64,000 bases of DNA from Chryseobacterium sp. (GTDB lineage Bacteria > Bacteroidota > Bacteroidia > Flavobacteriales > Weeksellaceae): contig JAITMC010000037.1 in the NCBI GenBank assembly GCA_031277615.1, positions 1-64,000 on the forward strand, in the 5' to 3' direction. Below the pieces are notes generated by a model. The model ran no database searches, had not been told where the DNA came from, and saw only the letters and a program-made list of their open reading frames with translations. Below, piece by piece: positions 8,061 through 42,048 of this stretch; the first letter of the stretch is position 1, and every line of letters starts with the position of its first letter. Made by a program: the position numbers and the translations under genes.

Positions 8061-8087
8061 GAAGGTTAAAAAAGCTTATTGAAAAAC

Positions 8088-9191
8088 ATGAACATGAAAA
8101 TTGCCTTCGATGCAAAACGTTTTTTTCATAATACGTCCGGATTGGGCAATTATTCGAGAGATCTGGTAAGAATTCTGTCTCAGTATTATCCGCAGAATGA
8201 ATACCTGCTGCTGAACAAAAACAGGTCCGAACGGGGGAAAGAAATCCTGGAGAGACCCGGTGTCCGTTTTGTGGAAACCTCAAAAGGAAAATTCTCACGT
8301 CAGCTGAAAATGGGAAAAGATGCCCAGAAGCAGGGAGCTGATATCTTTCACGGATTATCCGGGGAACTGCCTTTGAAATGGGATAAAACACCCATTAAAA
8401 AAGTCGTTACCATCCATGATCTGATCTTTATGAGATATCCTCAGTATTATTCCTTTTTCGACAGGAAAATACATCTTTGGAAGTTCAGAAAAGCAGCAGC
8501 AACCGCCGATAAGATTATTGCCATTTCAGAACAGACCAAACAGGATATCATTCACTATCTGAAAGTTCCGGAAGCAAAGATTGAAGTGATTTATCAGGGC
8601 TGTCATCAGGCATTCAAAGAACAGCAGACCGAAGAGCAGATCCTTGCGGTAAAAGAAAAATTTCTCCTTCCGCAGCGCTTCATTTTAAATGTTGGCACCA
8701 TTGAGGAAAGGAAAAACCTTCTGAACATCGTTAAAGCCATACAGGGAACAGAAATTCCGTTGGTCGTAGTGGGACGAAAAACCGGATACTATAAAAAAAT
8801 TGCAGGTTTCATCCGCAAAAATAAAATGGAAAAACAGGTTTATTTCCTTGAAGGCGTTTCTATGGATGAACTGGCAATGATCTACAAACTGGCCGATATT
8901 TTTGTTTACCCAAGCTTCTTTGAAGGCTTTGGAATCCCGGTTATTGAGGCCCTTTTTTCAAAAACCGTCACCATTACAAGCAACACCAGCTGTCTGCCTG
9001 AAGCTGGAGGAAAAGACTCCGTATATATCGATCCCGGAAATCATCTGGACCTTAAAGCCAAAATACAGTTCCTCTGGGATAATGAATCCGAACGGAAACG
9101 CCGTACAGAAAAGAGTTTTGAGTTTGTACAGCAATTTAATGACGAACCGATCGCCCGGCAATTAATGGAACTTTATAAAAAATTAAAGTAA
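8088..9191 (+). CDS. Glycosyltransferase, family 4 (GT-B fold)
   Basis: The protein has about 367 residues and starts at the ATG at 8088 (or 8094, MKIAFDAKRFF). A TTG further upstream would add three residues and is less likely. The N-terminal half has GLGNYSRDLVR and HGLSGELP. The C-terminal half has NVGTIEERKNL and the sugar-nucleotide-binding motif PSFFEGFGIPVIEAL. Family 4 enzymes transfer a sugar from a nucleotide donor with retention. Substrate is unknown. It is likely cytoplasmic and involved in surface polysaccharide or glycolipid synthesis. It stands alone between dapD and the his operon. Confidence 0.88.
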   Translation: MNMKIAFDAKRFFHNTSGLGNYSRDLVRILSQYYPQNEYLLLNKNRSERGKEILERPGVRFVETSKGKFSRQLKMGKDAQKQGADIFHGLSGELPLKWDKTPIKKVVTIHDLIFMRYPQYYSFFDRKIHLWKFRKAAATADKIIAISEQTKQDIIHYLKVPEAKIEVIYQGCHQAFKEQQTEEQILAVKEKFLLPQRFILNVGTIEERKNLLNIVKAIQGTEIPLVVVGRKTGYYKKIAGFIRKNKMEKQVYFLEGVSMDELAMIYKLADIFVYPSFFEGFGIPVIEALFSKTVTITSNTSCLPEAGGKDSVYIDPGNHLDLKAKIQFLWDNESERKRRTEKSFEFVQQFNDEPIARQLMELYKKLK

Positions 9192-9220
9192 AAAAAACAT
9201 GGCAGTTTAAAAATAAATCC

Positions 9221-9228
9221 TACATTTG
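9221..9228 (+). promoter_or_regulatory. Promoter -7 element of the his operon
   Basis: TACATTTG fits TAnnTTTG and would start transcription at about 9235, twelve bases before the leader peptide. No exact -33 TTG is seen at the usual distance. Confidence 0.6.
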
Positions 9229-9246
9229 TACCACAATTCAAAATAA

Positions 9247-9315
9247 TGAAACCGAATTTTTTAACAGTACATCATTACCACTATCATCTCTGCCCGGACG
9301 GAATTGATTGGTAAT
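9247..9315 (+). CDS. hisL: Histidine operon leader peptide
   Basis: A 22-codon frame encodes MKPNFLTVHHYHYHLCPDGI followed by Asp-Trp and a stop. Residues 9-14 are HHYHYH, so four of six consecutive codons are His. It lies between the putative promoter and a terminator hairpin and directly before hisG. This is the classical arrangement of an attenuation leader, in which ribosome stalling at His codons reports histidine shortage. It is too short to be noticed by length-based gene finding. A similar but longer His run occurs in the enterobacterial hisL. Confidence 0.88.
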
Positions 9316-9374
9316 GCCCATACGTTAAAAATCAAAATAATTAAAAACCGTCTGAGTAAATAGACGGTTTTTTT
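9296..9374 (+). terminator. Transcription attenuator of the his operon
   Basis: The terminator stem pairs aaaaaccgtct (9343-9353) with agacggttttt (9362-9372) and is followed by T residues. A competing antiterminator can form: cggacgg (9296-9302), which lies just after the leader's His codons, pairs with ccgtctg (9348-9354) with one G-U pair. This would unzip the terminator. A ribosome stalled on the His codons leaves 9296-9302 free, while one that reaches the stop codon (9313-9315) covers it. The pairing was worked out by eye. Confidence 0.82.
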
Positions 9375-9446
9375 GTTTCCTGAATTCTTCCTTTCAGAAA
9401 TTTTCAACAGATCAGTTTTTATTTGCTCAGACCCAAAAAGAATACA

Positions 9447-10304
9447 ATGAGTAAAATAAAAATTGCCGTTCAGAAAAGCGGCCGGCTCTATGAAGAATCC
9501 TTACAGCTTCTGAAAGATTGCGGCATCTTTGTTAATAATGGAAAAGATCAGCTTAAAGTCACCATAGACAATTTTCCGATGGAGATTATGTATCTCAGAA
9601 ATTCCGATATTCCACAGTATCTGGAGGATGGAGTCGTGGATATTGCCGTGGTGGGAGAAAATCTTCTGGAAGAGAAACAGAAAGATATCCGCATTGTTCA
9701 GAAGCTCGGATTTTCCAAATGCAGGGTTTCCCTTGCTGTTCCTAAAGATGTGGAAACAGACGATCCTTCATACTTCCACGGCCGGAAAATAGCCACTTCC
9801 TACCCGAATACCCTTAAAAACTATTTAGAAAAAAATGGAATCCGGTCAGAGATTCACATCATCTCGGGCTCAGTGGAAATTGCTCCGAATATAGGGCTTG
9901 CCGACGGAATCTGTGATATTGTAAGCTCTGGAAGCACCCTTTTCAAAAACGGACTAAGAGAAACCGTTACCCTCCTGAAATCAGAAGCGGTTCTTGCGCA
10001 GACAGCTAAGCTATCTCCCGAAAAAGAAAAGATCCTCCAAAAACTCCTGTTCAGGATCAAAGCCGTTTTAACAGCCAAAAACTCAAAATACATCCTGATG
10101 AATGTTCCGGATGAAAAAATAAAAGACATTGCCTCTGTGCTTCCCGTCCTGAAAAGCCCTACCGTGATTCCGCTGGCAGAAAAAGGCTGGAGCAGCATTC
10201 ATTCTGTGATAGACGAAGAAAGATTCTGGGACGTCATAGATGAACTGAAAGAAAACGGTGCCCAGGACATACTCATTATTCCAATCGATAAAATGGTGAT
10301 ATAA
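9447..10304 (+). CDS. hisG: ATP phosphoribosyltransferase (long form)
   Basis: This 285-residue enzyme condenses ATP with phosphoribosyl pyrophosphate, the first and feedback-controlled step of histidine synthesis. The start at 9447 (MSKIKIAVQKSGRLYEES) is preferred over an upstream TTG. Motifs include DGVVDIAVVGENLL and the PRPP-binding-like DIVSSGSTLFKNGLRE. The C-terminal 75 residues form the ACT-like regulatory domain of the long HisG class, so no HisZ partner is needed. It is first in the operon, and the next gene begins one base after its stop codon. Confidence 0.96.
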   Translation: MSKIKIAVQKSGRLYEESLQLLKDCGIFVNNGKDQLKVTIDNFPMEIMYLRNSDIPQYLEDGVVDIAVVGENLLEEKQKDIRIVQKLGFSKCRVSLAVPKDVETDDPSYFHGRKIATSYPNTLKNYLEKNGIRSEIHIISGSVEIAPNIGLADGICDIVSSGSTLFKNGLRETVTLLKSEAVLAQTAKLSPEKEKILQKLLFRIKAVLTAKNSKYILMNVPDEKIKDIASVLPVLKSPTVIPLAEKGWSSIHSVIDEERFWDVIDELKENGAQDILIIPIDKMVI

Positions 10305-10305
10305 G

Positions 10306-11580
10306 ATGAAAATATACAGATACCCGGAGAAAGAAACCTGGCCGGAACTTACCAGACGGCCGGTGTTGGAAAGGCAGGAAATATCAGACCTGATTGCTGA
10401 AATTTTTAAAGCCGTAGAAAAAAATGGTGATCAGGCACTGATTGAATTCAATAAAAAGTTTGATAAAGCAGTAACCGAAAATATTGCAGTAACAAAAGCT
10501 GAAATAGAAAACGCAGCCAAACAGATCAGCGAGGACTTAAAAAAAGCAATTGCCCAGGCAAAAGAAAACATTTCAATATTTCATGCCGCCCAGAAACAGG
10601 AGGCAGAAAAAATTGAAACCATGAAAGGAGTAACCTGCTGGAGGGAAAACAGAGCCATAGAAAAGGTCGGGATTTATATTCCGGGAGGAACCGCTCCTTT
10701 ATTTTCCACTGTACTGATGCTTGCCATACCTGCTAATCTGGCTGGATGCCGGGAAATTGTCCTGTGCACACCTCCTGATCGGAATGGGAACGTTAATCCT
10801 GCTATTTTATATGCCGCGCAGCTGTGTGGAATCTCAGAAATCTATAAAATAGGCGGAGCTCAGGCCATTGCAGCAATGACCCTGGGAACAGAAAGCATTC
10901 CGAAAGTATATAAAATTTTCGGCCCCGGAAATCAGTTCGTGGTAGCCGCCAAAGAATATGCCCAGCGTTACGGCATCGCAATGGATATGCCTGCCGGACC
11001 CAGTGAAGTTCTGGTGATTGCGGATCATAAGGCCGTTCCCGAATTCTGTGCTGCAGATCTGCTTTCCCAGGCGGAGCACGGCAGCGACAGTCAGGTGGTT
11101 TTTATTACAACAGATTTTAAAATCTTTAATCAAACCATGGATGCTGTAGAAAAGCAGCTTAAGAAGCTCCCCAGAAATGAAGCGGCTGCTCAGGCACTCA
11201 GCCACAGCTGTTTTATTTTAACGGAAAACCTTGAAGAAGCAGTCGAATTCAGCAATATGTACGCACCGGAACACTTAATTCTCGCTGTTGAAGATTTTGA
11301 AAAATATATTCCAGAGGTACAGAATGCAGGATCTGTTTTTCTGGGTAATTATTCCTGTGAAAGTGCTGGAGATTATGCCAGTGGAACCAATCATACATTA
11401 CCTACCAATGCCTTCGCCCGGAATTACAGTGGCGTTTCCATGGATAGTTTTGTCAAGAAGATCACATTTCAGCATCTTACGAAAAAAGGCCTCCGGAATA
11501 TCGGGAAAACAATAGAGATTATGGCAGAAGCAGAAGGACTTGCAGCTCACAAAAACGCAGTATCAATAAGATTAAAATAA
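10306..11580 (+). CDS. hisD: Histidinol dehydrogenase
   Basis: This 424-residue zinc enzyme oxidises L-histidinol to histidine in two NAD-dependent steps, which close the pathway. The family blocks are visible: YIPGGTAPLFSTVLML, GGAQAIAAMTLGT, GPGNQFVVAAKEYAQ, PAGPSEVLVIAD, LLSQAEHGSDSQVV and YAPEHLIL. The metal and base residues (Gln and His in SQAEH, His in APEH) are present. Length is normal. It sits second in the operon, one base after hisG and six bases before hisC. Confidence 0.97.
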   Translation: MKIYRYPEKETWPELTRRPVLERQEISDLIAEIFKAVEKNGDQALIEFNKKFDKAVTENIAVTKAEIENAAKQISEDLKKAIAQAKENISIFHAAQKQEAEKIETMKGVTCWRENRAIEKVGIYIPGGTAPLFSTVLMLAIPANLAGCREIVLCTPPDRNGNVNPAILYAAQLCGISEIYKIGGAQAIAAMTLGTESIPKVYKIFGPGNQFVVAAKEYAQRYGIAMDMPAGPSEVLVIADHKAVPEFCAADLLSQAEHGSDSQVVFITTDFKIFNQTMDAVEKQLKKLPRNEAAAQALSHSCFILTENLEEAVEFSNMYAPEHLILAVEDFEKYIPEVQNAGSVFLGNYSCESAGDYASGTNHTLPTNAFARNYSGVSMDSFVKKITFQHLTKKGLRNIGKTIEIMAEAEGLAAHKNAVSIRLK

Positions 11581-11585
11581 TAAAA

Positions 11586-12617
11586 ATGAAAGAATTTAAC
11601 CTCAATAATTTAGTAAGAAAAAATATTATCGGATTACAGCCTTATATCAGTTTCAGAGATCATAATGAATTCAGTGCCCCGGTATTGCTGGACGCCAATG
11701 AATGTCCGTTCGGGGAATTCAATAGATATCCCGATTCAACTCAGAAAAAACTTAAAAATAAGCTGGCTGATATTAAAAAAGTAAAACCAGAACAGATTGC
11801 AGTAGGTAATGGTAGTGATGAGCTGATCGATCTGATCATCAAAGTTTTCTGTGAACCGAAAAAAGATGCCATCCTGATGATGGATCCGTCTTTTGCCATG
11901 TACGGCTTCTATGCCACTGTAAATGAAAATACAGTTCTGAAACTTGACCTCAATGATCATTTTGAGATCATAAAAGATGAGTTTTTAGAAAAAATAAACG
12001 AAAATGAACCTAAGGTCTTCTTTTTATGTTCACCCAACAATCCCACAGGAAACAGCATAGAAGATATTGAATTTTTTGTCCGGAACTTTAATGGAATTGT
12101 CGTTATTGATGAAGCATATATTGAATTTTCAGGGCGGAAGTCCGGAATAGAACTGTTATCAGAATACCCTAACCTGATTGTTTTGCAGACCTTTTCAAAA
12201 GCCTGGGGAACAGCTGGGGCAAGGGTAGGAATAGCTTATGCTTCCGAAGAGATCATCCGCCTGATCAATACCGTTAAAGCTCCTTATAATGTCAATACCC
12301 TGAGTCAGGAACTCATTCTGAAACTTCTGAATGAAAGAAATACGCTGAAAGAAAACGTGGAAAATATCCTTCAGGAAAGAGAATGGCTGATGGATCAGTT
12401 TGAAAATATGGAATGTATTGACCGGGTGTTTCCTACGGATGCTAATTTTTTCCTGATCAGAATGAAAAACGCAGATCAGGTGTATGAAAAAATGCTTGAA
12501 GAAGAGATTCTGACCAGCAAAAGAGCACCAGCAATTCCCGGATGCATCAGAATCAATGTTGGAAGCCGTCAAGAAAACGAAAAGCTGATCAATACCCTGA
12601 AAAAAATACAGCCATGA
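11586..12617 (+). CDS. hisC: Histidinol-phosphate aminotransferase
   Basis: This 343-residue class I/II PLP-dependent aminotransferase converts imidazole-acetol phosphate to histidinol phosphate using glutamate. Key blocks are [16 protein letters not shown] near the N-terminus, [29 protein letters not shown], and the PLP-lysine motif [14 protein letters not shown]. The protein is of usual length. Its stop overlaps the hisB start (ATGA at 12614-12617), suggesting translational coupling. Confidence 0.97.
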
Positions 12618-13708
12618 AAAAAGTACTTTTTATAGACCGTGACGGCACTCTGATCATCGAGCCGCCAACAGATTTTCAGGTGGATTCCCTGGATAAGCTG
12701 GAATTTTATCCCGGGGTGTTTCAGAACCTGTCCCGAATTGCCAGGGAAATGGATTATGAACTGGTGATGGTCACCAATCAGGATGGTCTGGGAACAGAAA
12801 GCTTTCCGTTTGAAGAATTTATAAAACCTCACGAAAAAATGCTGAAAGCTTTTCAGAATGAAGGAATTATTTTCAGCGATATCCACATCGACAACAGTTT
12901 TGAACATGAAAACAAACCCACCCGGAAACCGGGAACTGCTATGCTCGAAAAATACAGATATGGCCAATATGATCTGGAAAACTCCTATGTGATCGGGGAT
13001 AGGGTGACTGATATTCAATTGGCTGATAATTTAGGAGCTAAGGCGATTTTTCTTAATGAAAACTTTAATGCTAAGGCTGAACTGACGACCACAAAATGGG
13101 AAGAGATTTACCGGTTCTTAAAACAGGACTCAAGGACGGCCCGAGTCAAAAGAACAACCAATGAAACGGATATTGACATTGAAATCAACCTGAATGGAAC
13201 AGGAAGATCCGATATTTCAACAGGGCTTCACTTTTTCAATCATATGCTGGACCAGATTGCCAGACATGGCAGCCTCGATCTGAAGATTAAAGTGAACGGA
13301 GACCTTCAGGTAGATGAGCATCATACGATCGAAGACACCGGAATTGCCTTGGGAGAAGCCATTTTAAAAGCACTGGGAAACAAAAAAGGAATTGAAAGAT
13401 ATGGATTTCTGCTACCGATGGATGACTGCCTGGCCCAGGCTGCCATCGATTTCGGAGGACGGCCGTGGCTGGTCTGGGAAGCAGATTTTAAAAGGGAAAA
13501 AATCGGTGACGTGCCTACTGAAATGTTTTTTCATTTTTTTAAATCACTGACAGATTCCTCCAGATCCAACCTGAATCTTAAAGCGGAAGGAAATAATGAG
13601 CACCACAAGATTGAAGCCCTGTTCAAAGCATTTGCAAAAGCCCTTAAAATGGCTGTTAAACAATCAGATAACACGTATAACTTACCTACCACAAAAGGAA
13701 GCCTATGA
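12614..13708 (+). CDS. hisB: Bifunctional histidinol-phosphatase / imidazoleglycerol-phosphate dehydratase
   Basis: The 364-residue fusion catalyses steps 7 (dehydratase) and 9 (phosphatase). The N-terminal HAD domain (about 1-165) begins [14 protein letters not shown], with Asp 8 and Asp 10 as the nucleophile and acid. The C-terminal dehydratase domain (about 170-364) has [26 protein letters not shown] and [12 protein letters not shown], the manganese-binding His clusters. The Cys residues that bind structural zinc in the enterobacterial phosphatase loop are not seen; the matching loop reads [15 protein letters not shown]. The start at 12614 overlaps hisC by four bases. Confidence 0.96.
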
Positions 13709-14286
13709 TCGCAGTAATAAAATACAATGGCGGAAATGTCAGCTCTGTTCAGAATGCCCTGAGGCAGTTAAATACAGATTCGGTTGTCACTGATGATCCG
13801 GAACTTATCCTGAGAGCCGATAAAGTCATCTTCCCGGGCGTGGGAGAAGCATCTTCCACTATGAAAAATCTTAAAGAAAAAGGACTTGACAGCCTTATTC
13901 CTTATTTAAAACAACCCGTTCTTGGGATCTGCCTCGGCATGCAGCTGATGTGCGCTGACAATGAAGAAGGAAATAACCAGGGTCTGGGAATTTTTAATAT
14001 TCCGGTCAGGAGATTTCCTCCGAAAGACCTGGTTCCCCACATGGGCTGGAATAGCCTTTCCCATCTTAATTCACCGCTCTTCTCCGGAATTTCCGGAAAT
14101 AGCGATGTTTATTTTGTACACAGCTATTACTGCGGACTGTCGGAGTTTACAACGGCGGACTGTGAATATATTCTGCCATTCAGTGCAGCATTACAGAAAG
14201 ATAATTTTTATGCCGTCCAGTTTCACCCGGAAAAATCAGGAGCGGTGGGACGCAGGATTTTAGAAAACTTTTTAACCCTTTCATGA
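13705..14286 (+). CDS. hisH: Imidazole glycerol phosphate synthase, glutaminase subunit
   Basis: This 193-residue class I glutamine amidotransferase supplies ammonia to HisF. The nucleophile lies in GICLGMQLM (Cys 76), and the His-Glu pair in FHPEKSG near residue 174. The sequence PHMGWN (about residues 112-117) is also typical of HisH. It overlaps hisB by four bases and hisA by four bases. Its partner subunit, hisF, is two genes downstream. Confidence 0.96.
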
Positions 14287-15008
14287 TGAAGATTATACCA
14301 GCTATTGATATTATTGACGGAAAATGTGTCCGGCTTTCAAAAGGGGATTACGATACCAAAAAGATCTATCGTGAAGATCCGGTGGAAACGGCGAAAGAAT
14401 TTGAAGATTCCGGCATCCGGTTTCTCCATCTGGTGGATCTGGATGGAGCTAAATCTAAACATATCGTCAATAGAAAAGTACTCGAAAATATTGCGAAAGA
14501 AACTTCACTGCACATTGATTTCGGAGGCGGACTGAAAACGCAGCAGGACATAGAAGCAGCTTTTGATTCGGGAGCCCGGCAGGTTACCCTCGGAAGCATT
14601 GCCGTTCAGGACCCTGAATTCAGCATTGAAATGATCCGTAAATACGGAAGTGAAAAGATCATTTTAGGAGCCGACTGTCACCACCGGAAAATAAAGATCT
14701 CCGGCTGGCAGGAAGAAAGTACTGAAGATATCATTGATTTTCTCTTGAGATACCAAAAACAGGGAATCACACAGGTGATCTGCACCGATATTGCGAAGGA
14801 CGGTATGCTTGAAGGCCCTTCGGAAGACCTTTATAAAGAGATTCTTGCAAAAACCTCATTAGAACTTATAGCAAGCGGAGGAATTTCCTGCATGGATGAT
14901 CTGTACGCTATGAAAGAAGCCGGATGTTCCGGAACGATCATCGGAAAAGCGATCTATGAAGGAAAGATAACATTAGTGGAACTTCGGAAATTTATTGAAA
15001 ATGCTTAA
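14283..15008 (+). CDS. hisA: Phosphoribosylformimino-AICAR phosphate isomerase
   Basis: This 241-residue (beta/alpha)8 enzyme isomerises ProFAR to PRFAR. The N-terminal catalytic Asp is in [18 protein letters not shown]. The second phosphate half-site reads [13 protein letters not shown] near residue 198, and the Asp in [14 protein letters not shown] is also conserved. The start can be the ATG at 14283 or the one at 14286. The gene overlaps hisH and, by eight bases, hisF. Confidence 0.96.
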
Positions 15009-15753
15009 AAAAAGAATTATTCCGTGTCTGGATATAAAAGACGGAACGACGGTAAAAGGAATCAATTTCGAAGGGCTCCGGAATGCAGGAGATCCCGTAG
15101 AACTCGCTGTAAAATATGAGCAGGAAGGAGCTGATGAATTGGTCTTCCTGGATATTACGGCTACTATTGAGAACCGAAAAACGTTTGCAGACCTGGTAAA
15201 ACAAATTGCACGGGAATTAAGTATCCCTTTCACGGTAGGAGGCGGAATTTCCTCCGTTGAGGATGTCAGAATACTTTTGGAGGCCGGAGCGGATAAAATC
15301 AGCATCAATTCTTCGGCAGTAAGAAACCCGCAGCTTATTGAGGAGCTTGCCGGAGAGTTCGGCAGCCAGTGTGTTGTCATAGCAATTGATACACGGAACG
15401 TGAATGGTCATGATCTCGTGCATATTCGCGGCGGTCGTGAAGCTACAACCCTGAATACCGTAGAATGGGCCAAAAGAACCACTTCTTTAGGGGCGGGAGA
15501 GATTCTGCTGACTTCCATGGACGGAGACGGAACGAAATCCGGATTTGATCTTAGGATTACCCGGCTTGTCTCAGAAAATGTTCAGATTCCCGTGATTGCT
15601 TCAGGCGGGGCCGGGAAAGCAGAGGATTTTGTTAAAGTCTTCCAGGAAACAAAGGCTACAGGAGCACTGGCCGCCAGTATTTTTCATTTCAATGAAGTGC
15701 CTGTTTCAGTGCTCAAGCAGGCCTTAAAATCTCAAAAAATTGCAGTACGATGA
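15001..15753 (+). CDS. hisF: Imidazole glycerol phosphate synthase, cyclase subunit
   Basis: The 250-residue barrel closes the imidazole ring and releases AICAR to purine synthesis. It begins [20 protein letters not shown], with the essential Asp 11. A second essential Asp is in [15 protein letters not shown], and the phosphate site is in [13 protein letters not shown] 15001 is preferred over an upstream TTG. It overlaps hisA by eight bases and hisIE by four. Confidence 0.97.
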
Positions 15754-16337
15754 ATATCAGTTTCAATAAAGGAAACGGGCTTGTACCCGTCGTTATTCAG
15801 GACAGCAGAACACTTCAGGTGCTTATGCTCGGTTATATGAATGAAGAAGCCCTTCAAAAAACAGAAAATGAAGGGATTGTTACTTTTTTCAGCAGATCAA
15901 AGAACAGGCTCTGGACAAAAGGTGAAACGTCCGGAAATTTTCTGAAAGTGGAAAGCATACATACAGATTGTGATCAGGACACCATACTGATTAAAACTGT
16001 CCCGGCAGGCCCGGTATGCCACACCGGAAGCTTCAGCTGTTTCGGTGGAAAAGATCCCAAAGGTTTTCTATACGAACTAGAAGCTAAAATAGCCGGTAAA
16101 ATCGATGATAAAGAAAACGGATCATATACTTATGCACTCTACCAGAGAGGAATCAATAAAATAGCTCAGAAAGTAGGTGAGGAGGCTGTAGAGCTGGTGA
16201 TTGAAGCGAAAGACAATGACCCGGATCTTTTTAAAAACGAAGCCGCTGATCTTCTGTATCACTTTTTGATTTTACTGAAAGCAAAAGGGTATAGTTTGGG
16301 GGAAATTGAAGAGGTTTTGCTGGGAAGAAACAGATAG
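15750..16337 (+). CDS. hisIE: Bifunctional phosphoribosyl-AMP cyclohydrolase / phosphoribosyl-ATP pyrophosphatase
   Basis: The 195-residue fusion catalyses steps 2 and 3 of the pathway. The HisI part (about 1-105) has [28 protein letters not shown], the metal-binding HTDCDQDT and CHTGSFSC. The HisE part (about 110-195) has [15 protein letters not shown] and [11 protein letters not shown], the acidic motifs of MazG-like pyrophosphatases. It ends the operon. No clear terminator hairpin is visible in the 90 bases after it. Confidence 0.96.
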
Positions 16338-39713: not shown

Positions 39714-40400
39714 TTATTTCTCCAGGATTTCCAGAACCTTTTCTGCAACGGCCCCTCCGGACTGAGGGTTCTGTCCTGTAACCAGTCTTCCGTCCGAAAC
39801 CGCAAAAGAAACAAAATCCTGTTCTGCCTTTACATAATGAGCACCCTTAGTCTTCAGAACATCTTCCGTAAGGTAAGGCATATGATCAGCCAGTTCGGCT
39901 GCAATTTCTTCAGCATTGGAAAACCCGGTCAGTGTTTTTCCTTTAATAAGAAGCTCCCCATCGGAAAGCCTGATATTAAATAATCCTACTGCGCCGTGGC
40001 AGACTGATGATACAATACCTCCGTTTTCATAGATGCTGCGGGCAATTTCCTGAAGTTCCGTATTGTCAGGGAAATCCCAGACAACGCCATGGCCTCCCGA
40101 ATAATAGATCACTTCGTACTCTTCAGGACGGATATCTTTGGGCTGCAAAGTGTTGCCCAGCTTGTTTCTGAACGTTTCATCAGCGTAATATTTCCAGTCG
40201 GCGGGCTGCACAAACATTTGCAGGGAAATTGGATCAATTGGAGTATAGCCGCCTCTCGGGCTTACAAAATCTATTTCATAACCTTTCTCATGCAGTTTTT
40301 CATAAAAATGAACGGCTTCGCCCAGCCATAAGCCGGTAGCTCTTTCCATTTCAGGATATTTCTCTACACTGGTCACTACAATTAATGCTTTCTTTTTCAT
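39714..40400 (-). CDS. DJ-1/PfpI family protein (class I glutamine amidotransferase-like)
   Basis: The 228-residue protein has the DJ-1 superfamily nucleophile elbow SSVCHGAVGL, with the Cys followed by His, and GGHGVVWDFPD near residues 98-108. It resembles HchA and related glyoxalase III-like or chaperone-like proteins. The exact reaction cannot be assigned from sequence. It lies 113 bases downstream of a Crp-like regulator on the same strand, with a terminator between them. Confidence 0.88.
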   Translation of the reverse strand: MKKKALIVVTSVEKYPEMERATGLWLGEAVHFYEKLHEKGYEIDFVSPRGGYTPIDPISLQMFVQPADWKYYADETFRNKLGNTLQPKDIRPEEYEVIYYSGGHGVVWDFPDNTELQEIARSIYENGGIVSSVCHGAVGLFNIRLSDGELLIKGKTLTGFSNAEEIAAELADHMPYLTEDVLKTKGAHYVKAEQDFVSFAVSDGRLVTGQNPQSGGAVAEKVLEILEK

Positions 40401-40492
40401 TGGTTTGGTATTTAAAGTTATTTTTATGAGTTTGATGACTACAAAGATTCACTTTTTGACCTCGTTTACGGAAGGACATATCTCAAAAAAAA

Positions 40493-40512
40493 CGTGTGAC
40501 AAAGGTCACACG
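40493..40512 (-). terminator. Terminator of the Crp-like regulator
   Basis: A perfect stem cgtgtgac-aaag-gtcacacg is followed on the minus strand by an 8-base T-run. Confidence 0.85.
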
Positions 40513-40513
40513 C

Positions 40514-41077
40514 TTAAGAATATAATCTGCTTAATGTTTCTCTGGAAACGCCAAGATAGCTTGCAATAAACTGTTTGGGAATATGTTCTGCAAAACCCGG
40601 ATACTGCCGCACAAAATCTTCATAACGCTCTTTGGCCGATTGGCTTATCAGCGAAAGCATCCTTTGCTGTAACGCGACATAACCGAAATTAGACTTCACC
40701 CTGAAAAAATGCTCCATAGCAGGAAGCTGTGAACAGAGATCGTTTAATTGCTCATGGGTGATGGCATATACTTCGGTGTCCTCGATGCAGTCAACGGCCA
40801 GTGAGGAGTTTTCCTGCTTAAAGAAAGCGGCAAAATCTGAAATCCACCAGTTGGGAGCTGCAAACTGAAGAATATGTTCCTTTCCCGTACCGTCCATAAT
40901 GCTGCTCTTCAGAATTCCTTTTTCTATCAGATACATTTCATGAACAGGCTGATTTTCCTGGATCAGAAACTGTCTTTTACGGAATTTCTTCCGCGTGAAG
41001 AAAGGGATGATATGTTCAAACTCATCATCACTCAGCGGAATTGTTTCCCGGATATGGACTTTCAGAAAATCGCTCAT
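40514..41077 (-). CDS. Crp/Fnr family transcriptional regulator
   Basis: The 187-residue protein has an N-terminal cyclic-nucleotide-binding-like beta-roll (about 1-115) with LIEKGILKSS and FAAPNWWISDF. A C-terminal helix-turn-helix ends IASYLGVSRETLSRLYS. Residues that bind cAMP in E. coli Crp are not obvious, so the ligand is unknown. Spacing of 11 bases from the upstream kdsD gene suggests one transcript. It may also control the DJ-1/PfpI gene downstream, which is inference. Confidence 0.88.
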   Translation of the reverse strand: MSDFLKVHIRETIPLSDDEFEHIIPFFTRKKFRKRQFLIQENQPVHEMYLIEKGILKSSIMDGTGKEHILQFAAPNWWISDFAAFFKQENSSLAVDCIEDTEVYAITHEQLNDLCSQLPAMEHFFRVKSNFGYVALQQRMLSLISQSAKERYEDFVRQYPGFAEHIPKQFIASYLGVSRETLSRLYS

Positions 41078-41088
41078 AGGAAATGAGA

Positions 41089-42048
41089 TTAATTAATACC
41101 TTCGTCCAATAGCTTATGAAGATCAATGATCCCGAAGTAGCCTCCGTTTTCAGTCACGACAAGCTGTCCGATATTATTTTCCTTAAGGATCTTCATTGCT
41201 TCTTTTGCCAGAGCTTCTTTTTCAATGGTTTTCGGATAGCCGGACATAATATCTCTGGCCTGAACTTTTGTAATGTCTTCTCCCTTCATCAGCATTCTTC
41301 TCAGGTCACCGTCTGTAATCACTCCGATGATTTTTTCATGATCCGTCACCACGGTAATTCCGTGGCTGGATGCGCTGATGGAGATGATCACATCCCTGAT
41401 GGATGAATCCTCCGTTACCTGAGGTTTTTGTGAAGACAGGAACTGTTCTACTTTAGAGGTCAGGTTTTTTCCAAGGCTTCCTCCCGGATGGAATTTAGCA
41501 AAATCGTTGGCTTTAAAATCATTCAGTTCCATTAAGGCAACGGCCAGTGCATCTCCCAGGGCCATCTGGATCGTTGTAGAGCTGGTAGGAGCCAGTTTGT
41601 TCGGGCATGCTTCCACATCCACATGCGTATCCAGAACGATTTCCGAAAACTCAGCCAGCTTACTTTTTTTATTGCCTGTCATACCGATCAGTGCAGAAGA
41701 ATAGTCTTTTAAATAAGGAACAAGGTTTGCTATTTCCGGAGAATTTCCTGAATTCGAGATGCATAGTACCACATCCTGTTTCTGGATCACCCCAAGATCT
41801 CCATGAATGGCTTCTGAAGCATGGAGAAACTGTGACGGAGTGCCCGTGGAATTTAAGGTTGCAACAATCTTGTTGCCCACATGAGCCGACTTCCCGATTC
41901 CTACCACAATTAATTTTCCTTTGGCCGAATGAATGATCTCTACGGCTTTGGCAAATTCTTCATCAATTCTGTTCTTTAACTTTTCAAGTTCTGAAATTTC
42001 AATCTCCAAAGTGCTCTTAGCGATTGAAATAATGTCGGTTCTTTCCAT
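41089..42048 (-). CDS. kdsD: D-arabinose-5-phosphate isomerase
   Basis: The 319-residue protein interconverts ribulose 5-phosphate and arabinose 5-phosphate, the first step in making Kdo for lipopolysaccharide. A SIS sugar isomerase domain (about 30-180) has VVGIGKSAHVGNKIVATLNS and ISNSGNSPEIA. Two CBS domains follow (about 205-319). The segment HPGGSLGKNL links the two parts. The layout is the same as KdsD/KpsF. The gene faces recQ divergently and is followed by the Crp-like regulator. Confidence 0.94.
   Translation of the reverse strand: MERTDIISIAKSTLEIEISELEKLKNRIDEEFAKAVEIIHSAKGKLIVVGIGKSAHVGNKIVATLNSTGTPSQFLHASEAIHGDLGVIQKQDVVLCISNSGNSPEIANLVPYLKDYSSALIGMTGNKKSKLAEFSEIVLDTHVDVEACPNKLAPTSSTTIQMALGDALAVALMELNDFKANDFAKFHPGGSLGKNLTSKVEQFLSSQKPQVTEDSSIRDVIISISASSHGITVVTDHEKIIGVITDGDLRRMLMKGEDITKVQARDIMSGYPKTIEKEALAKEAMKILKENNIGQLVVTENGGYFGIIDLHKLLDEGIN

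Follow-up and report, generated by a model that had tools for sequence, protein, structure and literature searches.

Organization of the his operon and its leader

The DNA analysed here, a stretch of 64,000 nucleotides from Chryseobacterium sp. that we refer to as the window, contains a complete his operon in the order hisG-D-C-B-H-A-F-IE (9447-16337). All eight genes gave matches over cut-off to the family models named in brackets:

9447 to 10304, forward strand: hisG (TIGR00070 and TIGR03455)
10306 to 11580, forward strand: hisD (TIGR00069)
11586 to 12617, forward strand: hisC (TIGR01141)
12608 to 13708, forward strand: hisB, bifunctional (NF003937)
13705 to 14286, forward strand: hisH (TIGR01855)
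14283 to 15008, forward strand: hisA (TIGR00007)
15001 to 15753, forward strand: hisF (TIGR00735)
15750 to 16337, forward strand: hisIE (NF002747)

The window's HisG shares 82-90% identity with the proteins of the 73 best loci (L002-L074), which carry the label Chryseobacterium save for two labelled Weeksellaceae bacterium. Upstream of the leader lies a glycosyltransferase-like gene (8079-9191), with weak matches that all stay under cut-off. The region in front of hisG contains the following elements of a leader, listed with the basis of each assignment:

9221 to 9228, forward strand: -7 promoter box TACATTTG of the TAnnTTTG type (pattern match; the box is common in relatives' leaders)
9246 to 9314, forward strand: leader peptide ORF MKPNFLTVHHYHYHLCPDGIDW, 22 amino acids (translation; His-rich counterparts in relatives)
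9270 to 9287, forward strand: control codons His His Tyr His Tyr His (sequence)
9273 to 9280, forward strand: arm 1, CATTACCA, which in the absence of the ribosome forms a stem with 9309-9316 (minimum free energy fold)
9295 to 9309, forward strand: arm 2 (positions, stalled-ribosome folding and cognate 2:3 energies)
9309 to 9316, forward strand: protector partner of arm 1, TGGTAATG (minimum free energy fold)
9343 to 9374, forward strand: intrinsic terminator, consisting of arms 3 and 4 and a T tract (terminator scan with hairpin 9343-9372 and T tail; stem covariation)

The TAnnTTTG motif has been named in a transcriptome study of Flavobacterium psychrophilum (PMC9723704). Among 139 leaders compared here, 117 have such a box no more than 70 nt ahead of the leader start. 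Because the window carries this box, the transcript is expected to start shortly downstream of 9221-9228. A scan of the window leader for generic sigma-70 promoters found none, which is the expectation for this phylum.

A conserved histidine-rich leader peptide

A preliminary description of this DNA had proposed a 22-residue leader peptide with four His in six codons, and translation bears this out: among the 827 ATG ORFs of 10-40 amino acids on both strands of the window, the leader ORF is the only one with at least four His in six codons. Comparison with the hisG leaders of relatives reveals that the short ORF with His codons is kept. An ORF with at least three His lies no more than 420 nt upstream of hisG at 79 of 80 related loci, and the 80th (L052) comprises only 99 nt of upstream sequence. 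In a wider set, at least three His were called by script in 139 of 141 leaders; for L028, one of the two leaders without such a call, the reading of the 80 loci does show a His ORF. The number of His per leader is 3 to 5 in 129 of the 139, so the earlier suggestion that such a device works with fewer stall codons is a fair one.

In the Chryseobacterium-type loci (n = 72 with a full upstream region, L002-L074 minus L052) the peptide has the form MKPNFLTxHHY[YH]HHLC with small variations, and the stop codon mostly follows straight after Cys. This stop after LC is lost in the window (9292-9314) and in L002, L053 and L055, where a few extra codons extend across arm 2.

The preliminary description also raised the possibility that the device senses tyrosine together with histidine, which the comparison fails to support and which we regard as highly improbable. 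The HHY core is found at all 72 Chryseobacterium-type loci with its first Tyr invariant, and a contribution of this third residue of the motif may exist inside that group. However, the leaders of other genera have HHHHFH, HQHHFH, HHHHSH or HHHHH in place of HHYHYH, with H, F or S where Tyr would stand, and the sole product of the operon is histidine. We reject the sensing of tyrosine because its place is not conserved outside the Chryseobacterium-type loci.

Terminator and antiterminator

The region 9200-9400 folds better than 200 of 200 shuffled sequences (z -4.06). The terminator scan returned two terminator-like sites, which are one hairpin seen on both strands, against a mean of 0.3 in shuffles. 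For comparison between lineages we compiled 69 leaders, one per genus where possible, from which the 72 Chryseobacterium-type loci were left out against over-counting of one lineage. Automatic terminator prediction failed for 6 of 141 leaders and put the hairpin in the wrong place in others, and 12 hairpins were placed by hand. In the alignment of the 69 leaders 96.9% of the cells of the 3:4 stem are paired, with a covariation of 0.238 compared to 0.144 in shuffles, which ignore kinship (reached in 0/500). The strong terminator proposed to follow the leader is thus borne out by the scan, the T tail and the covariation of its stem.

The competing antiterminator is formed by GGACGG (9296-9301) and CCGTCT (9348-9353), lengthened by the pair C9295-G9354. 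The preliminary description had recognized this pairing, with coordinates (9296-9302 with 9348-9354) that are off by about one position; the segments are 9295-9301 and 9348-9354. A possible extension pairs TTGATT (9304-9309) with AATCAA (9330-9335). When arms 2 and 3 were swapped across species, the cognate 2:3 energy of -839.7 was not reached in any of 2000 permutations (mean -716.5, sd 16.1), which ignore kinship. The permutation tests on strand 5 (see below) were carried out on 65 species, leaving out four leaders with fewer than 25 nt after the terminator. Across species the terminator arms co-vary and the cognate antiterminator arms match each other.

Folding calculations were done for 68 species, one leader without a script-called ORF being left out. 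Before arm 4 is complete, the antiterminator is predicted in 68/68 species with the ribosome stalled at the second His codon, in 26/68 with the ribosome at the stop codon and in 45/68 when no ribosome is present. For the window, strand 3 is predicted to form 9.8 pairs with the leader upstream at this point when the ribosome is stalled at the second His codon, 0.33 when it is at the stop codon and 0.67 without a ribosome. The modelled contrast between stalled and other states is clear in the window, and is not seen in every species.

No Rfam family reaches its gathering score in the window. Among the 27 Rfam matches at E<=10 for the region 9180-9480, His_leader, which we take to be the name of the family of the gammaproteobacterial type, is absent. 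The T-box model has no match in the window, nor is it among the E<=10 matches for 9180-9480. Sub-threshold matches, such as those to Phe_leader and Thr_leader, were dismissed as chance level (about 22-24 bits, with cut-offs of 55).

As judged from the sequence, the leader before hisGDCBHAFIE is very probably a ribosome-mediated histidine attenuator; this reading is supported by the identity of the genes, the conserved His leader, the covariation of the terminator and the matching of cognate antiterminator arms. The attenuator is ordinary in kind and has been hinted at in print before.

A strand downstream of the terminator is complementary to the terminator arm and loop

The preliminary description placed the whole attenuator in one leader of 150 bases. 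The classic parts are indeed there, yet that leader ends at 9374 and misses a further element between the terminator and hisG, which we call strand 5. Three segments are relevant:

9350 to 9361, forward strand: strand 3, the terminator 5' arm plus loop, GTCTGAGTAAAT (12-pair complement of 9421-9432)
9421 to 9432, forward strand: strand 5, ATTTGCTCAGAC (can pair with strand 3 and, in many species, also with the hisG start)
9447 to 9455, forward strand: strand 6, the hisG start ATGAGTAAA, a copy of the strand 3 tail TGAGTAAA (AGT at codon 2)

Strand 5 can form 12 pairs with strand 3, one of them T-G, and the energy of this 3:5 duplex in the window, -16.4 kcal/mol, was matched by 0/300 shuffles. 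Of the 69 leaders, 50 have a 3:5 duplex that outperforms shuffles at p<=0.05, and 44 still do at p<=0.01; in the other 19, strand 5 was not found by this duplex test (p<=0.05). The cognate 3:5 energies sum to -874.8, compared to a permuted mean of -576.6 (sd 19.4, 0/2000), and the 50 variant strands alone give -628.6 against -399.0 (0/2000), both with permutations that ignore kinship. In the alignment of the 69 leaders 85.4% of the 3:5 cells are paired, versus 23-44% when the strands are slid by 1-3 columns, and 67 cells are changed on both sides compared to 24.8 in shuffles. The misalignment of strand 5 in some rows (for example L079, L123, L125, L081 and L180) lowers the 3:5 count. Covariation (0.277 versus 0.176, 0/500 with shuffles that ignore kinship) is about as strong as that of the terminator stem. 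The terminator cannot by itself account for the 67 double changes, since 38 of them fall in columns 10-12 and 24-26, which are not part of the terminator stem.

Individual lineages illustrate the same behaviour. One genome (G322) has unrelated strand words, GCCGAAGTGTTT paired with AAACACTTAGGC. In one further genus, for which 33 loci were read by eye out of 48 hisG-bearing genomes among 61, a strand 3 with GAGTACA is matched by TGTACTC in strand 5; further combinations are GAGTAAATC with GATTTACTC and GAGTATATC with GATATACTC.

The position of strand 5 is constrained with respect to the gene. By duplex energy it was found in 51 of the 65 leaders, where its end lies a median of 17 nt from the AUG (IQR 16-19, range 13-42). 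The distance from the terminator (median 23, IQR 20-27, range 6-53) is more variable than that, and the tighter spacing to the AUG ties strand 5 to initiation rather than termination.

Strand 5 is a well supported extra element of the attenuator, and its sequence has very likely been selected to pair with strand 3. It could also be that the attenuator is a plain one, in which strand 5 has no regulatory role and the complementarity is a relic or the trace of another constraint. Consistent with this, strand 5 is missing from the 19 leaders above and was seen by eye in few regions of a class-wide draw (see below); since part of the leaders lack it, attenuation works without strand 5. However, the 67 double-changed cells, with 0/500 shuffles, the unrelated strand pair of G322 and the tight spacing to the AUG make such a passive origin unlikely.

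Strand 5 also matches the start of hisG

Strand 5 is complementary to TGAGTAAA within the hisG start ATGAGTAAA. As it matches both strand 3 and the hisG start, strand 3 carries a copy of the start. Of the 69 leaders, 36 have a pairing of strand 5 with the start (5:6) that exceeds shuffles at p<=0.05, and in 34 both 3:5 and 5:6 do so. Cognate 5:6 pairs are better than permuted ones (0/2000), likewise when the 35 start variants are taken separately, in tests that ignore kinship. In G242 three strands have changed together (TGAACAA, TTTGTTCA and ATGAACAAA), and a three-strand change in step also occurs in G429, G321, G363 and G194. Codon 2 of hisG is AGT at 81/81 loci (the window and 80 others), a codon that makes up 10.9% of the 1782 other Ser codons in the same hisG genes and is used for 9 of 30 second-codon serines in a sample of 253 genes from the window's genome.

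Covariation of 5:6 over the 69 leaders is weak (0.173 versus 0.152, 24/500, with shuffles that ignore kinship); 21 cells are changed on both sides compared to 13.3 (7/500), and the number of pairs changed on both sides, 5, is as in shuffles. Changes in hisG codon 3 are uncompensated in strand 5 in L044, L048, L058 and L066, partly compensated in L070 and compensated in L079. Among the 253 genes of the window's genome, the 5:6 energy of hisG is reached by 11 and its run of 9 by 5. Strand 5 thus perhaps pairs with the hisG start in many species, with weaker support than for 3:5.

Two readings that need no pairing within one transcript deserve mention. In DNA, strands 3 and 5, and likewise 5 and 6, are inverted repeats, and strands 3, 5 and 6 could be half-sites of a DNA-binding regulator. 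One copy would then lie in a terminator arm and one over a start codon, and the words change together in each genome to quite different ones, so that the protein would need a matching change each time; we consider such a regulator very improbable indeed. Attenuator RNAs that are released and act in trans occur elsewhere, as in the case of rnTrpL of Sinorhizobium. By analogy with this precedent, the terminated leader RNA, abundant when His is ample, could use its terminator loop and arm to pair with the hisG mRNA at strand 5 and change the translation or decay of this mRNA. The sequence of the terminator loop does lie inside the conserved complement, although proximity far favours pairing in cis and the match with the start is neither needed nor explained by trans action, which is therefore quite improbable.

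A possible translational lock on read-through transcripts

We hypothesize that the locus is a two-layer device, in which the histidine attenuator is followed by a second, translational lock on the read-through mRNA; we hold the chances of this hypothesis to be even. In the first layer, a shortage of charged His-tRNA would stall the leader ribosome at the His codons, where it covers arm 1; arm 2 would be left free to pair with arm 3, and RNA polymerase would pass. When His is ample, or when the leader is untranslated, arms 3 and 4 would form the terminator. In the second layer, strand 5 would pair with strand 3 or, in many species, with the hisG start. A transcript that has leaked past the formed terminator would have strand 3 locked in the hairpin, strand 5 would close the hisG start, and no HisG would be made. 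In an antiterminated transcript, the tail of strand 3 would catch strand 5 before the start is made, and the start would stay open. This direction of the second layer (leaked transcripts closed, antiterminated ones open) is put forward tentatively, at slightly less than even confidence.

We further speculate, with some doubt, that the terminator arm and loop act as a start-codon decoy by copying the first codons of hisG, one anti-start strand being shared by the hairpin and the gene. It is similarly conceivable, if somewhat doubtful, that the hairpin that stops transcription also silences leaked mRNA, so that one leader peptide would operate a lock at two levels.

Equilibrium folds of the antiterminated state show the start more open by >0.1 in 14/69 leaders and less open in 8/69; in equilibrium folds that mask the stalled ribosome, 6/68 have a more open start and 4/68 a less open one. 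In the window, 5:6 is predicted to close the start in both states, and the start is open to 0.29 in the terminator state. Because these folds are mixed, the lock would have to rely on kinetics, with strand 5 transcribed ahead of the start. In transcripts that end before the start, 3:5 is predicted in 35/68 stalled and 27/68 fed cases, and in both for the window. Initiation in F. johnsoniae makes no use of a Shine-Dalgarno sequence and is adjusted by the structure of the mRNA (PMC6847099).

A different mode of action is that strand 5 represses through 3:5 itself, just upstream of the A-rich initiation region, where the duplex would hinder the 30S subunit and the match with the start would be secondary; upon His shortage arm 2 would take strand 3 away and hisG would be translated. 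The evidence agrees with this in that 3:5 is more widely kept and has stronger covariation than 5:6, in that 3:5 is kept and 5:6 lost in lineages such as G300, G198, G608 and G531 (and, by eye, G881), and in that 2:3 dominates on stalling in most of the 68 species in the ribosome-masked folds. Left unexplained are the copy of the hisG start in strand 3 of several lineages and the invariant AGT at codon 2 (81/81). Moreover, strand 3 of fed transcripts is expected in the terminator hairpin, though 3:5 wins in the 27/68 folds just mentioned. We therefore judge repression by 3:5 to be rather unlikely.

Relation to known systems

The classical scheme is the his operon attenuator (hisL) of Salmonella and E. 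coli, with which the window shares a His-rich leader peptide, a terminator before hisG and a competing antiterminator. In contrast to hisL, the window leader has no long unbroken run of His, its sequence is different and without an Rfam match, and it has strand 5; we know of no hisL with such a strand between the terminator and hisG.

In Bacteroidota, strong clues for leader-peptide attenuation before amino-acid operons have been described for F. psychrophilum, together with a structured 5' element of hisG that is common to other genera of the family and has no Rfam hits (PMC9723704). The arms, the match with the start and a translational layer are undescribed in the accessible text of that paper, whose supplement (Table S7, appendix D9) may show more. 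In the accessible text of a 2021 paper on Bacteroidota his genes, attenuation comes up for enterobacteria only (PMC8305728), and a 2010 survey, in its accessible parts, adds Firmicutes cases of its own to leader-peptide systems that were then known only from Proteobacteria and Actinobacteria (PMC2965389).

The closest parallels with two levels of control are vmlR and tlrB (yxjB) of Bacillus subtilis. Termination in these leaders is governed by ribosomes that stall on a leader ORF, and transcripts that leak through have their initiation site hidden in a hairpin; for vmlR, another pairing in the read-through RNA has been proposed to open the initiation site (PMC9226507, PMC6851288). As described there, these devices sense antibiotics, hide the Shine-Dalgarno sequence and serve resistance genes (PMC9226507, PMC6851288), whereas the device of the window would respond through His codons, hide a start codon and serve a biosynthetic operon, in a phylum that does not use Shine-Dalgarno sequences.

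In the literature searched, with most subscription journals outside its scope, we found no description of strand 5. What is new here is strand 5 as an addition to a known kind of attenuator, with the mechanism as we propose it from sequence comparison. The his attenuator of this group, for which there is no Rfam family, now has each of its strands assigned. Should the second lock be real, transcription attenuation would be coupled to translation by hiding a start codon, with no Shine-Dalgarno sequence to hide, and a terminator hairpin would also act as a switching strand in a subsequent step. Natural variation of the strands across many lineages provides ready-made pairs for tests.

Distribution of the leader and of strand 5

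A pattern search for strands 3 and 5, with a gap too short for Chryseobacterium, gave loci in 11 of 395 genomes. By reading, 7 of these 11 are hisG leaders (L112, L113, L114 and L119-L122); L115-L118 are not at hisG leaders, look like chance and were rejected. In a class-wide draw hisG matches were obtained in 113 of 256 genomes. Among 52 upstream regions from this draw a His-cluster ORF was called by script in 39, at least one of which (G810) is probably chance. Strand 5 was recognized by eye in 5 of the 52 (G739, G805, G871, G700 and G881), and most of the regions with a terminator carry another terminator word. Strand 5 therefore characterizes one branch within a broader group of his attenuators. 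Other Bacteroidia (for example L236/G734, L211/G848 and L215/G679) have His-rich leaders before hisG in which the terminator word is about GGCTTACC...GGTAAGCC and inspection by eye shows no strand 5; leaders with this word are apparently a sister type of his attenuator.

An inversion of the DNA between strands 3 and 5 was considered and dismissed, as one orientation was found among the matches listed in an alignment of 80 close sequences. In one leader (L161 in G342; reverse strand, 98-189) the hairpin has no T tract, and the hairpin and strands 3, 5 and 6 are kept. This would fit a purely translational device, which is possible. The loss of the T tract rests on this one incomplete genome, because the only other genome of the G342 family has no hisG match.

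Upstream of relatives' pheA (14 loci) and trpE (16 loci) no strand 5 was seen by eye. In G322, G321 and G320 (L259, L260 and L262) there are leader ORFs rich in Phe and Tyr, with terminators, ahead of pheA; before Chryseobacterium pheA genes no such leader was seen by eye. In the window's own genome (L271, contig C9), a Trp-rich leader ORF (WWW) and a terminator-like hairpin precede a trpE-like gene (39901-41244), as they also do in Chryseobacterium relatives, and because of this arrangement the genome probably has a trp attenuator too.
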